In this document: positions 4,733 through 7,784 of the stretch, piece after piece
Numbering within the stretch: position 1 is the first letter of the stretch
Layout of the letters: each line of letters opens with the position of its first letter
Assembly (NCBI GenBank): GCA_001797815.1
Contig: MGQK01000062.1
Span: forward strand, 4,859 to 20,649
Origin: Deltaproteobacteria bacterium RBG_13_61_14
GTDB taxonomy: Bacteria > RBG-13-61-14
Direction: 5' to 3'
Length of the DNA stretch: 15,791 bases
Notes under the pieces: model-generated
The model's database searches: none
Told to the model about the DNA's origin: nothing
Seen by the model: the letters and a program-made list of their open reading frames with translations, nothing else
Program-made: the position numbers and the translations under genes

Positions 4733-6073
4733 ATGAGCAAGCCCCTCGTCATCCTCCGCGACCAACCCGATTACCAGTTCGGGAAAATCCAGGAGCACGC
4801 CTCAGCCATCCTGGCCCGGACCCGCCTCCCGGTGAAAGGCCGGCGCGTGCTGGTGAAACCCAGCTTTGTCTATCCCACCCGCGAGGCTCCTGGCCTGCCG
4901 GTGATCACCAGTCCGATTTTTATCGCCGGGGTGGCCGCGGCGCTCCGCGACCACGGCGCCAAGGAAGTCCTGGTCGCCGAGTCCTCGGTGATCGGCCCCA
5001 GCCGCGTCTCCTTCTACTCGACCGGGGTGATGCCCCTGCTCCGGCGGTTGGCCACGCCGGTGTTCCTGGACGAGGCGGAGACCGTGGAGGTCCAGGTGCC
5101 GGCCCCCCTAGTGCAGGAGCGGTTCACCGTGCCCAAGGTCTGGCTCGATGCCGACCTGTTCGTGAGCCTGCCCAAGATCAAGGTCAACCTGTTCGCCGGG
5201 GTCACGCTCAGCATCAAGAACAACCTGGGCCTGCTCCGGCAAAAGGACCGGCTGCTCTATCACGACCATCGGCTGCACCAAAAGCTGGCCGACCTCTTCA
5301 AGGTGCGCCGGCCCGACCTGGTCATGTCCGACTGCATCGTGGCCGGCGAGGGCCAGGGGCCGCTCCTGGCCGACCCGGTGCCGCTGGGCCTGATCGTGGC
5401 CGGAACCAACCCGGTGGCGGTGGACGCGGTTTCCTGCCGGCTGATCGGTTACGCGCCGGCGGAAGTCGAACACCTGCGGCTCTTGCACCAAGCCGGTTTT
5501 GGGCCGATTGACTTGGAGGAGATCGAGGTCGAGCCGGAGGAGTTGCTGAGCAAGGCAAAAGTCTTGCGCCGGCCCGAGGTCTCGCTTCAGGACTTGAGCC
5601 CGAGAGTGCGGGTGTTCGAGGGCACCGAGATCTCCTGCCCCTGGGGCTGCAAGGGCCTGGTGCGCGGCGCGGTGGATGCTTACCTCGCCCGCTATGGCCG
5701 CGAGGGCATCCGCCCCCTGAACGTGATTCTGGGCAAGCCCATTGCCCAGGTCCCGGAAGACCTTGACCCGAATATCACCCTGGTCTTGGGCGACTGCGCC
5801 CTGCCCTATCGCGGCCGGGGCGAGTTCGTCCCCGGCTGCTGCCCGGTGCCGCTTGAGATCGGCTACGTGGTCCGCCGCATCCTGGGCCCGATGAAAGTGG
5901 CCATGCGCCTGAGCGACGTGATGGCGGGTTACACCGGTCACAACCTCTGGCGGCTTCGCCGGCGCCTGGCCGGCAAAAGCCTGGCGCCGGTTGAAAACCA
6001 TGTGCCCTTCCTCCGCGTCCTCCAAGAATACGCGGTCCTGGTCCGAGAAAAACTATTCGGGCAGAAATCCTGA
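4733..6073 (+). CDS. DUF362 family protein with Cys-containing C-terminal extension
   Basis: A 446-aa protein from ATG 4733 with only a weak purine-rich RBS (AAGAAGTG). Family hallmarks: RVLVKPSFVYPT (38-49), ADLFVSLPKIKVNLFAGVTL (140-159) with the following SIKNNLGLL, DLVMSDCIVAGEGQGPL (195-211) and GTNPVAVDAVSCRLIGY (224-240). DUF362 proteins often occur with or fused to 4Fe-4S domains; their reaction is not well established. This one has no CxxCxxCxxxC motif, but the C-terminal part contains C302, C306, C355, C369 and C370 (CPWGC, GDC, PGCCP), a possible metal site. The next gene starts two bases after its stop and encodes a ferredoxin-like protein, so the two likely work together. The 107-bp gap before it has no good terminator, so it probably belongs to the thiolase operon. 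Confidence 0.75.
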   Translation: MSKPLVILRDQPDYQFGKIQEHASAILARTRLPVKGRRVLVKPSFVYPTREAPGLPVITSPIFIAGVAAALRDHGAKEVLVAESSVIGPSRVSFYSTGVMPLLRRLATPVFLDEAETVEVQVPAPLVQERFTVPKVWLDADLFVSLPKIKVNLFAGVTLSIKNNLGLLRQKDRLLYHDHRLHQKLADLFKVRRPDLVMSDCIVAGEGQGPLLADPVPLGLIVAGTNPVAVDAVSCRLIGYAPAEVEHLRLLHQAGFGPIDLEEIEVEPEELLSKAKVLRRPEVSLQDLSPRVRVFEGTEISCPWGCKGLVRGAVDAYLARYGREGIRPLNVILGKPIAQVPEDLDPNITLVLGDCALPYRGRGEFVPGCCPVPLEIGYVVRRILGPMKVAMRLSDVMAGYTGHNLWRLRRRLAGKSLAPVENHVPFLRVLQEYAVLVREKLFGQKS

Positions 6074-6075
6074 TC

Positions 6076-6927
6076 ATGCTCTGGCTCTTTAGCTTCTTCT
6101 TGTTTGGGCATCTTTTCACCGCCTCGGGCGAGGTGGCGGAGGTCGGCCGGCTGCATTACTGGACCCATGCCGCTTATGCCAAACTCGAGCCCGCGGTCAT
6201 CCGCCTGGCCGACTTCATGCTCCGCCGCGCTTTCTTCACCCAAAACCCGGTCGGCCGCCGATTACTTTGGCTGTTGTCCTGGACCAACCTCCTGCTGCCC
6301 CACGGGGTGGTGATCCCGACCCCGGCCGCGGCCCGGCTCCTCCGCGATATCGCCGGCGCGCCGGAGGCCGAGGCCCACATCGCCATCGGCCCGTGCGTCT
6401 GCCAGAAAAACCTAGAGCGCTTCCGCGAGCCGGTGGAAAAAGACATTACCGTGCTCTATGGGGCCGAGATTTACCGCCGCTTCTTTCCCGAATACCGCCG
6501 GCTGGATCTGGACGAGGCCCTGGACCTGCTGAAAAAATTTAACCAGGCCGGGCTCACGCCGGTGGCCGAGTTCCTGATGCAGTCCGGGCAATGGATGTTC
6601 GTGCTCTGCCATTGCGACCAGGAAGTCTGCTGTCCCACCCGCATTTACAACGCCGTCGGCCGCTCGCTTTATCCCGGGCCTTACCAGGCCCGGCAAGACC
6701 CGAAAAAGTGCCTGGGCCCGGAGGTCTGCGGCCTCTGCCTGAAGCGCTGCCATTTCCACGCCAACCGCGCGGAGGCCGGGCGGGCGGTCCTGGAGGAGGG
6801 GCAATGCCTCGGCTGCGGCCTGTGCGTGACCACCTGCCGGGGCAAAGCGCGCAAGCTCGTCCGCCGGCCGGGTTACTCCGGCCGGCTTCTGCCTTTTGCC
6901 CGCGTGCAGACGCCGGAGCTGGATTAA
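6076..6927 (+). CDS. Ferredoxin-like [4Fe-4S] protein with additional Cys motifs
   Basis: A 283-aa protein whose ATG lies two bases after the DUF362 stop (translational coupling). The N-terminus is very hydrophobic (MLWLFSFFLFGHLF), suggesting membrane association or a buried helix. Cysteines form several clusters: C107/C109 (GPCVC), C178/C180/C185/C186 (LCHCDQEVCC), C212/C218/C221/C225 (C-x5-C-x2-C-x3-C) and C244/C247/C250/C254 (canonical C-x2-C-x2-C-x3-C). The last two could hold two [4Fe-4S] clusters; the first two may bind a further cluster or metal. The usual Pro after the last Cys of each motif is absent. It likely donates electrons to, or matures, the DUF362 partner (inference). The last 35 codons are duplicated downstream at 7602-7704. 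Confidence 0.75.
   Translation: MLWLFSFFLFGHLFTASGEVAEVGRLHYWTHAAYAKLEPAVIRLADFMLRRAFFTQNPVGRRLLWLLSWTNLLLPHGVVIPTPAAARLLRDIAGAPEAEAHIAIGPCVCQKNLERFREPVEKDITVLYGAEIYRRFFPEYRRLDLDEALDLLKKFNQAGLTPVAEFLMQSGQWMFVLCHCDQEVCCPTRIYNAVGRSLYPGPYQARQDPKKCLGPEVCGLCLKRCHFHANRAEAGRAVLEEGQCLGCGLCVTTCRGKARKLVRRPGYSGRLLPFARVQTPELD
6821..6923 (+). repeat. Direct repeat, copy 1 (3' end of the ferredoxin-like gene)
   Basis: This 103-bp stretch encodes the C-terminal residues from about 249 of the ferredoxin-like protein. It recurs 781 bp downstream at 7602-7704. About 88% of positions match by eye, and a 58-bp core (6836-6893 versus 7617-7674) is identical. Differences lie mostly outside the core. Confidence 0.9.
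6863..6886. repeat. GC-rich hairpin inside direct-repeat copy 1
   Basis: GCCGGCCGG and CCGGCCGGC form a perfect 9-bp stem around the loop GTTACT. The identical hairpin occurs at 7644-7667 in copy 2. It could be a recombination or pausing site, or simply reflect Pro/Gly/Arg codons in a GC-rich genome. Confidence 0.7.
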
Positions 6928-6937
6928 GAAAGAGCGG

Positions 6938-6991
6938 GATGCGCGGCATGAGCGAGCAAGGTGAAAAAAGTGGGAAAGGCGAAAAAGGTAT
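6938..6991 (+). repeat. Left terminal inverted repeat of the S23 cassette
   Basis: This 54-bp arm matches the reverse complement of 7548-7599, roughly three-quarters identical with short gaps. The shared core is GTGAAAAAAGTGGGAAAGG in the left arm. It begins 14 bp after direct-repeat copy 1 ends and includes the candidate start codons of the four-helix-bundle gene. Confidence 0.7.
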
Positions 6992-7520
6992 GAAAGGAAA
7001 AGCCGCTCGAACCTTTGAGGAACTGCATATTTATCAGCGGGCGCGCGAACTGACCAACGAAATCTATCGCCTGAGCCGCGGCGCCGCCTTCTCCCGTGAT
7101 CACTGCCTGGTGGACCAGATCCGCCGCGCCGCCCTCTCCGTTCTTTCCAACATTGCCGAAGGCTTTGAGCGGGGCACCTCTACCGAATTCATCCACTTCC
7201 TTTATATCGCCAAAGGCTCCTGCGGCGAGGTCCGTGCCCAACTTCAGATCGCTCACGATCAGGAGTATATCCCCCGAGACGAATGCCACCGCCTCCAAAG
7301 CCTCTCCTGCCAGACCAGCGGCATGATCTCCAATTTCATCGCCCACCTGCAGTCCTCGGACTACCCCGGAGCGAAATCCGCCCGGCCCCAGCGCCTGACC
7401 CGGGAAGAACAGGCCCATCGTCTTGAGCAGCTACGCCAGACCCAGCAAGCGAACATCCGCCGCCAAAAGGAATACTACCAACCCAAGCCTGAAAAGACCA
7501 ACCAACCCGATGAGGACTAA
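6939..7520 (+). CDS. Four-helix-bundle protein, 23S-rRNA-IVP / S23 family
   Basis: A 193-aa protein if started at ATG 6939. ATG 6948 and ATG 6990 are alternatives; 6990 would give 176 aa beginning MKGKAARTFEELHIYQRARE, closer to the family's normal start. Conserved family motifs are FEELHIYQRARELTNEIY near the N-terminus, LVDQIRRAALSVLSNIAEGF in the middle and EFIHFLYIAKGSCGEVRAQL after it. The last roughly 45 residues form a charged, Gln/Glu/Arg-rich tail beyond the normal ~120-aa domain. Relatives occur in 23S rRNA intervening sequences, and the Avd protein of diversity-generating retroelements has a related fold; the biochemical role of free-standing members is unknown. It lies within inverted repeats after the ferredoxin-like gene and is probably unrelated functionally to the upstream operon. 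Confidence 0.8.
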   Translation: MRGMSEQGEKSGKGEKGMKGKAARTFEELHIYQRARELTNEIYRLSRGAAFSRDHCLVDQIRRAALSVLSNIAEGFERGTSTEFIHFLYIAKGSCGEVRAQLQIAHDQEYIPRDECHRLQSLSCQTSGMISNFIAHLQSSDYPGAKSARPQRLTREEQAHRLEQLRQTQQANIRRQKEYYQPKPEKTNQPDED

Positions 7521-7547
7521 CCCTGCCTTTCCGCCCTTCCCGCCTTG

Positions 7548-7599
7548 ATGACCCTTCGCACCCTTCCCACTTTTCTCACCTTCTCACCCAGCCCGCATC
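7548..7599 (-). repeat. Right terminal inverted repeat of the S23 cassette
   Basis: Reverse-complement partner of 6938-6991. It ends three bases before direct-repeat copy 2. Core on the minus strand: GTGAGAAAAGTGGGAAGGG. Confidence 0.7.
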
Positions 7600-7601
7600 A
7601 A

Positions 7602-7726
7602 TCTGGGTGACCATTGGCCGGGGCAAAGCGCGCAAGCTCGTCCGCCGGCCGGGTTACTCCGGCCGGCTTCTGCCATTCCAGCGCGTGCGCACGCCGGAGT
7701 TGGACGGAGAAATAGAGCCGATCTGA
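7602..7726 (+). pseudogene. Displaced 3' end of the ferredoxin-like gene (direct repeat, copy 2)
   Basis: Positions 7602-7704 repeat 6821-6923. In frame it reads VTIGRGKARKLVRRPGYSGR, then LLPFQRVRTPELD and a further GEIEPI before TGA at 7724-7726. The intact gene instead stops right after PELD. The last cluster Cys of the intact gene (TTCRG) is Gly here (TIGRG), and there is no start codon, so it is not a functional ferredoxin. Because the operon's likely terminator follows directly, this copy may be the ancestral gene end, displaced when the cassette arrived. Confidence 0.75.
7644..7667. repeat. GC-rich hairpin inside direct-repeat copy 2
   Basis: Identical to 6863-6886: 9-bp GC stem and loop GTTACT. 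Confidence 0.7.
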
Positions 7727-7747: not shown

Positions 7748-7784
7748 AAGGGCGCACTCGTCGGCGCCCTTTCGCTTTCCTTTA
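7748..7784 (+). terminator. Intrinsic terminator ending the rightward operon
   Basis: AAGGGCGC (7748-7755) pairs perfectly with GCGCCCTT (7764-7771) around an 8-nt loop, followed by a T-rich tail (TTTCGCTTTCCTTT region). The orientation fits the operon from the left; on the other strand the flank has no T-run. It lies 40 bp before the 3' end of the convergent minus-strand gene. Confidence 0.6.

Follow-up and report, generated by a model that had tools for sequence, protein, structure and literature searches.

S23 array elements: an apparently undescribed and probably mobile class of bacterial elements with one S23 gene between inverted arrays of a short unit

The window, by which we mean the whole 15,791-nt stretch of DNA analysed here, carries downstream of a DUF362 gene a ferredoxin-like gene (referred to below as the host gene), which is followed by a cassette with an S23-family gene and then by a second, displaced copy of the host gene's own 3' end (Table 1). 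The arms that face each other across the S23 gene (6958-6989 and 7551-7582) are 32 nt long with 81% complementarity, and when gaps are allowed the match extends to 42 nt with a score of 40, whereas 5,000 shuffles reached 30 at most. An initial annotation of this DNA had described the S23 gene as enclosed by imperfect terminal inverted repeats, with edges at 6938 and 7599 that fit what is found here. What had not been seen is that the arms consist of imperfect tandem copies of a ~9-bp unit, (A/G)(A/G)GTGNGAA (RRGTGNGAA), and that the two arrays are placed in opposite orientation. Since a longer N-terminus would be overlapped by the left array, the likely start of the S23 gene is the ATG at 6990 and not position 6948.

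Table 1. Features of the S23 cassette and its surroundings in the window.
Feature	Position	Strand	Remarks
4Fe-4S ferredoxin-like ORF (host gene)	6076..6927	+	3' of the DUF362 gene at 4733-6073
Direct repeat, copy 1	6823..6934	+	Last 35 codons of the host gene plus a few bases; continuous with the intact gene
S23 cassette, 662 bp	6938..7599	+	Single copy; no second copy in the genome
Left array, ~9-bp unit	6958..6999	+	AAGGTGAAA-AAAGTGGGAA-AGGCGAAAA-AGGTATGAA; overlaps the S23 start region
S23 / 23S_rRNA_IVP four-helix-bundle gene	6990..7520	+	176 aa; extra C-terminal helix
Right array, inverted	7551..7589	-	GGGTGAGA-AGGTGAGAA-AAGTGGGAA-GGGTGCGAA-GGG on the - strand
Direct repeat, copy 2	7604..7715	+	Displaced 3' end of the host gene
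Hairpin, terminator-like	7748..7772	+	AGGGCGC...GCGCCCTTT; 3' of copy 2; read from the sequence, weak

The family assignment of the S23 protein is clear from its matches to PF05635 (E 7e-33, 113 bits, curated cut-off 33.8) and TIGR02436 (E 2e-32, 111.6 bits, cut-off 24). No other Pfam or NCBIfam domain is found in the protein, thus no recognised nuclease or transposase domain, and S23 is the only domain in the entire cassette, where the same profiles recognise neither a transposase nor a recombinase. The predicted structure (pLDDT 92) is a four-helix bundle that best matches 2GSC, which is XCC0516, an S23 protein of Xanthomonas campestris, and 2RLD, followed by Avd (4DWL) and the RNP of a diversity-generating retroelement (DGR). 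Both of the solved S23 entries contain five chains each, and the Avd protein of DGRs is a pentamer.

The repeated end of the host gene on either side of the S23 gene, which had also been noticed at the outset, is real and can be delimited more precisely. Its two copies are 112 nt long and 86% identical (16 mismatches), lie 781 bp apart from start to start and share an identical run of 58 nt at most. Because no such run was obtained in 100,000 trials in which 16 mismatches were evenly scattered, the divergence between the copies is a mosaic, and this mosaic of an identical core with diverged repeat ends suggests that the repeat was partially homogenised by gene conversion after the duplication. 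Copy 2, which begins 4 bases to the right of 7599, is without the fourth cysteine of the host gene's cluster motif, and its reading frame is open as far as the TGA at 7724-7726. The terminator-like hairpin just after it, which is absent from the output of the consensus scan, weakly suggests that copy 2 sits at the gene's original end. The genome search revealed no further copy of the 112-bp repeat (the next best match being 24 nt), and no second copy of the host gene is left in the genome. Perfect 9-bp palindromic arms around GTTACT (6863-6886 and 7644-7667) are found within the identical core of the repeat, and they could be a recombination site or a product of chance in GC-rich coding DNA.

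The window's genome (G000) has eight S23 genes, and most of the others are also closely flanked by inverted arms. The search of this genome for the window's termini, which had been suggested as a check, therefore gave a divided answer: inverted arms recur, but the termini themselves are different, because each copy has a unit of its own. These units, of ~7 bp, are TGGTTCC, GTAGGTC, GGCTTTA, AGGGTGA and ATTTTAG, which are mutually unrelated, while one further copy has a CTACATA array at its right and is masked on the other side. Short-read assemblies may be broken by such arrays, as could be the case at two loci (L005 and L008) where runs of N stand immediately beside the S23 genes, at the expected position of the array. 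Two other places in the genome deserve mention. A solo array of six 9-mers (AAGTGTGAA/GGGTGTGAA) that resembles the window unit is present at C18:1310-1363 (L279), accompanied by neither an S23 gene nor an inverted partner, and on contig C45 (L286) a large hairpin and a heptamer array of the GTGCACA type lie close to the start of a gene, again without S23 nearby.

This arrangement is by no means restricted to one genome. Inverted arms (score >=26) surround S23 in 61% of 155 loci from many phyla, compared to 1.0% of 491 control frames shifted by 800-1000 bp within the same loci, and the remaining ~40% are without clear arms by the score used, some of them showing arrays by eye. Arms of the same locus match each other better than foreign pairs do (P = 6e-65), an arm's own partner ranking first in 60 of 168 cases. 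The periodicity of the arrays is mostly 7 (74/99), less often 8 (15/99) or 9 (4/99), and at every period the most common number of units per arm is 4-5. Similarity between arrays follows similarity between S23 proteins (Mantel r = 0.37, 0/500 permutations; r = 0.16, again 0/500, without the homology-selected set), and one S23 subfamily has CAGNANN-like units in Nitrospirae, Verrucomicrobia, Planctomycetes, Chloroflexi and Cyanobacteria. The S23 set taken from genome contigs was drawn with a single protein as query and is therefore biased towards one subfamily. S23 lies between two genes of its own strand in 101 of the 144 loci with clear neighbours, each flank being co-directional at P < 1e-13, which could reflect counter-selection of the other orientations or a step at the RNA level. 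Less regular arrangements were also seen. In three loci (L187, L079 and L044), arrays enter the S23 frame (giving a QYS-like tail) or two inverted arrays stand back to back on one side, which suggests nested insertions, and genome G010 has ~19 partial PF05635 matches, mostly in divergent (head-to-head) pairs separated by 100-400 bp, which may represent decay or another type of arrangement.

For the class, precise insertion is shown by filled and empty sites that could be paired on cyanobacterial plasmids with identities as high as 97%. Five Nostoc plasmids (L155-L159) have the uninterrupted junction GGTTCTAGGTTATGC, into which three others (L069/L153/L154) have received an insert of ~415 bp that consists of arrays and S23. 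In Trichormus/Scytonema plasmids, an S23 copy fills AAAAAGTAATTAACAAAT (L070/L313) and has generated a 5-bp target duplication, GTAAT, the plasmids with the empty site (L309-L311) being 97% identical to them. The filled site in Aulosira (L068), when compared with its empty counterparts (L315-L317), has a truncated upstream gene end and no target duplication, and in Picosynechococcus PCC 7003 an S23 copy is found between cmr2 and cmr3, which are adjacent in PCC 7002. Target duplications in the clean pairs are thus ~5 bp or none, that is, short and not constant. Arrays and S23 enter a site together as one unit, and related elements recur at unrelated sites. The Nostoc plasmid pNsp_c (L156) has a second S23 element, of another subfamily and with GGGAAAA arrays (1937-2443), which has entered the neighbouring gene junction of the same operon. 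As to the window, no orthologous empty site was found, the nearest genomes belonging to another family of the same order, with homologues only ~30% identical; with no close relative in the collections, we infer the insertion of the window copy from its class, which the cassette fits by having an S23 gene between matching inverted arrays of a 7-9 bp unit.

Elements of this type also occur without the S23 gene. On the Nostoc plasmid pNPM1, an S23 gene (L154:1531-2094) is interrupted by a ~200-bp S23-less element, which has the same five-unit arrays in inverted orientation and, inside, a strong hairpin, and on Brasilonema pBOCT2 (L314) the Trichormus site is occupied by a short element without S23. 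Heptamer arrays of the unit GGGAATC are reported from two Xanthomonas genomes, ~185 in each, with 70-75 instances of convergent inverted pairs; they were left unexplained and are generally without association to mobile elements (PMC4692102). The prediction that GGGAATC arrays bracket an S23 gene, set before the search, held in G753, probably a relative of Xanthomonas and the only one among 369 gammaproteobacterial genomes with three consecutive GGGAATC units. Its single S23 gene, apparently frameshifted, has GGGAATC arrays on both sides, and the genome contains in addition at least six S23-less elements. Several of its array sites are S23-less inverted pairs with a spacing of ~70-160 bp, and at their inner ends they are similar to the S23 copy (about ATCGTNGAAGC). 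In the open-access literature, no published link between S23 and heptamer repeats was found.

We propose that the window cassette belongs to a broad class of small mobile elements whose ends the S23 protein would recognise, a reading to which we give a probability of roughly 0.7. These 'S23 array elements' are about 0.4-0.7 kb long, with inverted arrays of a 7-9 bp unit on either side of a single S23 gene, and they are very widespread and, as far as the open-access literature goes, apparently undescribed. The original suggestion of an inserted unit built around S23, with inverted termini and no transposase, as a non-rRNA counterpart of the intervening element of 23S rRNA, is thus strengthened by empty sites and S23-less derivatives from beyond the window.

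Two other views of the arrays have to be weighed against this. The literature ascribes heptamer repeats to polymerase slippage (PMC4692102, PMC4679880), in which case the arrays would have arisen near S23 by chance and would not be element ends. This is extremely improbable considering that inverted pairing is found in 61% of loci against 1% of control frames, that the left and right arms match in a copy-specific manner and that, when filled and empty sites are compared, both arrays are gained together with S23. A far more serious contender, although we consider it rather unlikely, is that the mobility of array elements comes from an unrelated host transposase or from replication/repair, with S23 as a passenger or a regulator of the transcript that would, for example, bind RNA at the array stem. 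It would account for S23 having no recognised nuclease or transposase domain, for the existence of S23-less array elements and for target duplications of ~5 bp that look like ordinary transposition. Strong co-directional placement also suits a role at the RNA level, as does the predicted fold of the window RNA, which is closed by the array stem, though with an energy z of only -1.6 versus shuffles. However, the S23 copies of one genome differ in their units and the unit goes with the protein, which is not what a shared host enzyme predicts, and the scattered arrays in G753 match the array of its only S23 gene.

The duplicated end of the host gene is a separate matter. It had been proposed that the element inserts in such a way as to leave the host gene with its 3' end complete, which would make the 112-bp duplication a signature of the element, either a long target duplication or a carried gene end. 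Both copies directly adjoin the cassette edges, like a target duplication, a terminator-like hairpin follows copy 2 and the codons that differ between the copies in the last third are mostly synonymous, but the idea is nonetheless very doubtful. When other S23 genes were checked for duplicated ends of the preceding gene, as had been recommended, none of 95 loci had a comparable case (which makes the window unique among the 96 tested and rules out a duplicated host-gene end as a general feature of S23 elements); clean filled/empty pairs show ~5 bp or none, and one insertion, that in Aulosira, truncated the upstream gene instead of preserving it. The main alternative for the window's repeat is that the gene, or its end, was duplicated in tandem at an earlier time and that the S23 element inserted later between the copies, or else that most of a second gene copy was deleted. 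The 58 identical bases between diverged flanks suit gene conversion of old paralogous ends, yet it would be a coincidence for the element to have hit precisely the point where the two copies meet, and no second gene copy remains, so that we find this account possible but not probable. The account that fits best, and the simplest since both copies adjoin the cassette, is that the duplication arose as an unusual by-product of one insertion or of its repair.

Several known systems resemble S23 array elements in part. The intervening sequences (IVS) of 23S rRNA with an S23 ORF, for example in Coxiella burnetii, likewise have the S23 gene between terminal inverted repeats that make a long stem possible, and their mobility has long been suspected (PMC4990558). 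In contrast, the window cassette lies between protein genes and none of the 168 S23 loci has 23S rRNA motifs, the element ends are arrays of short tandem units which vary from copy to copy, and the filled and empty sites are in protein operons. As for the stem in the transcript, which RNase III cuts in IVS, the arms of the window cassette pair in the predicted RNA. The orphan heptamer repeats of Xanthomonas and Nostoc (Rehm et al., 2015; PMC4692102) are also intergenic with 7-bp units, and those of Xanthomonas often form convergent inverted pairs of the same GGGAATC unit as in G753; these were described without a link to mobile elements or S23, whereas they appear here as S23-less relatives of an S23 element. 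Beggiatoaceae have intergenic 7-bp repeats as well, TAACTGA (PMC4679880). Like MITEs and ordinary IS elements, S23 elements have inverted ends, short target duplications and non-autonomous derivatives, but the S23-bearing form is without a transposase and its ends are copy-specific tandem arrays. In REP/RAYT systems (REPINs), a protein gene is flanked by a repeat that is scattered genome-wide as short inverted pairs, RAYT being a Y1/HUH transposase. S23 elements are alike in combining a gene with scattered inverted pairs, and unlike in that S23 is all-helical and without a Y1/HUH domain. Finally, S23 has the same four-helix fold as the Avd protein of DGRs (4DWL, 8UB7), but reverse transcriptase (PF00078) is absent from G000 and from 10 of the 13 other S23 genomes checked, several of which are complete. 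Reverse transcriptase is therefore not needed, and we reject movement driven by it.

As for how S23 array elements might move, the S23 protein, probably a pentamer like Avd, would bind the arrays, perhaps with one unit per protomer, and bring the two element ends together, after which either S23 or an activity of the host would cut and join the strands, and S23-less array pairs would be moved in trans. In the window, such an element would have inserted where the ferredoxin-like gene ends. The five chains in each S23 crystal entry and the pentameric Avd make a five-subunit ring that reads 4-5 units an attractive possibility. S23 could possibly be (i) a targeting factor for a host enzyme, (ii) a passenger or (iii) an unusual mobility protein. 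The boldest version, which we hold only tentatively and rate at somewhat less than even odds, is that S23 is itself the mobility protein of a transposase-less class, in which a five-subunit ring reads five-unit arrays, unit and protein co-evolve, the heptamer repeats abundant in many bacterial genomes are the ends and non-autonomous offspring of the element and the rRNA IVS is the special case of an insertion into rRNA.

A large proportion of the sampled bacterial genomes carry S23/four-helix-bundle genes, often in several copies. If S23 is an array-recognising mobility protein, this would (i) explain what S23 is for, (ii) explain the origin of heptamer repeats such as GGGAATC, (iii) show how the fold of Avd was recruited to diversity-generating retroelements and (iv) represent a mobile element without a known transposase.
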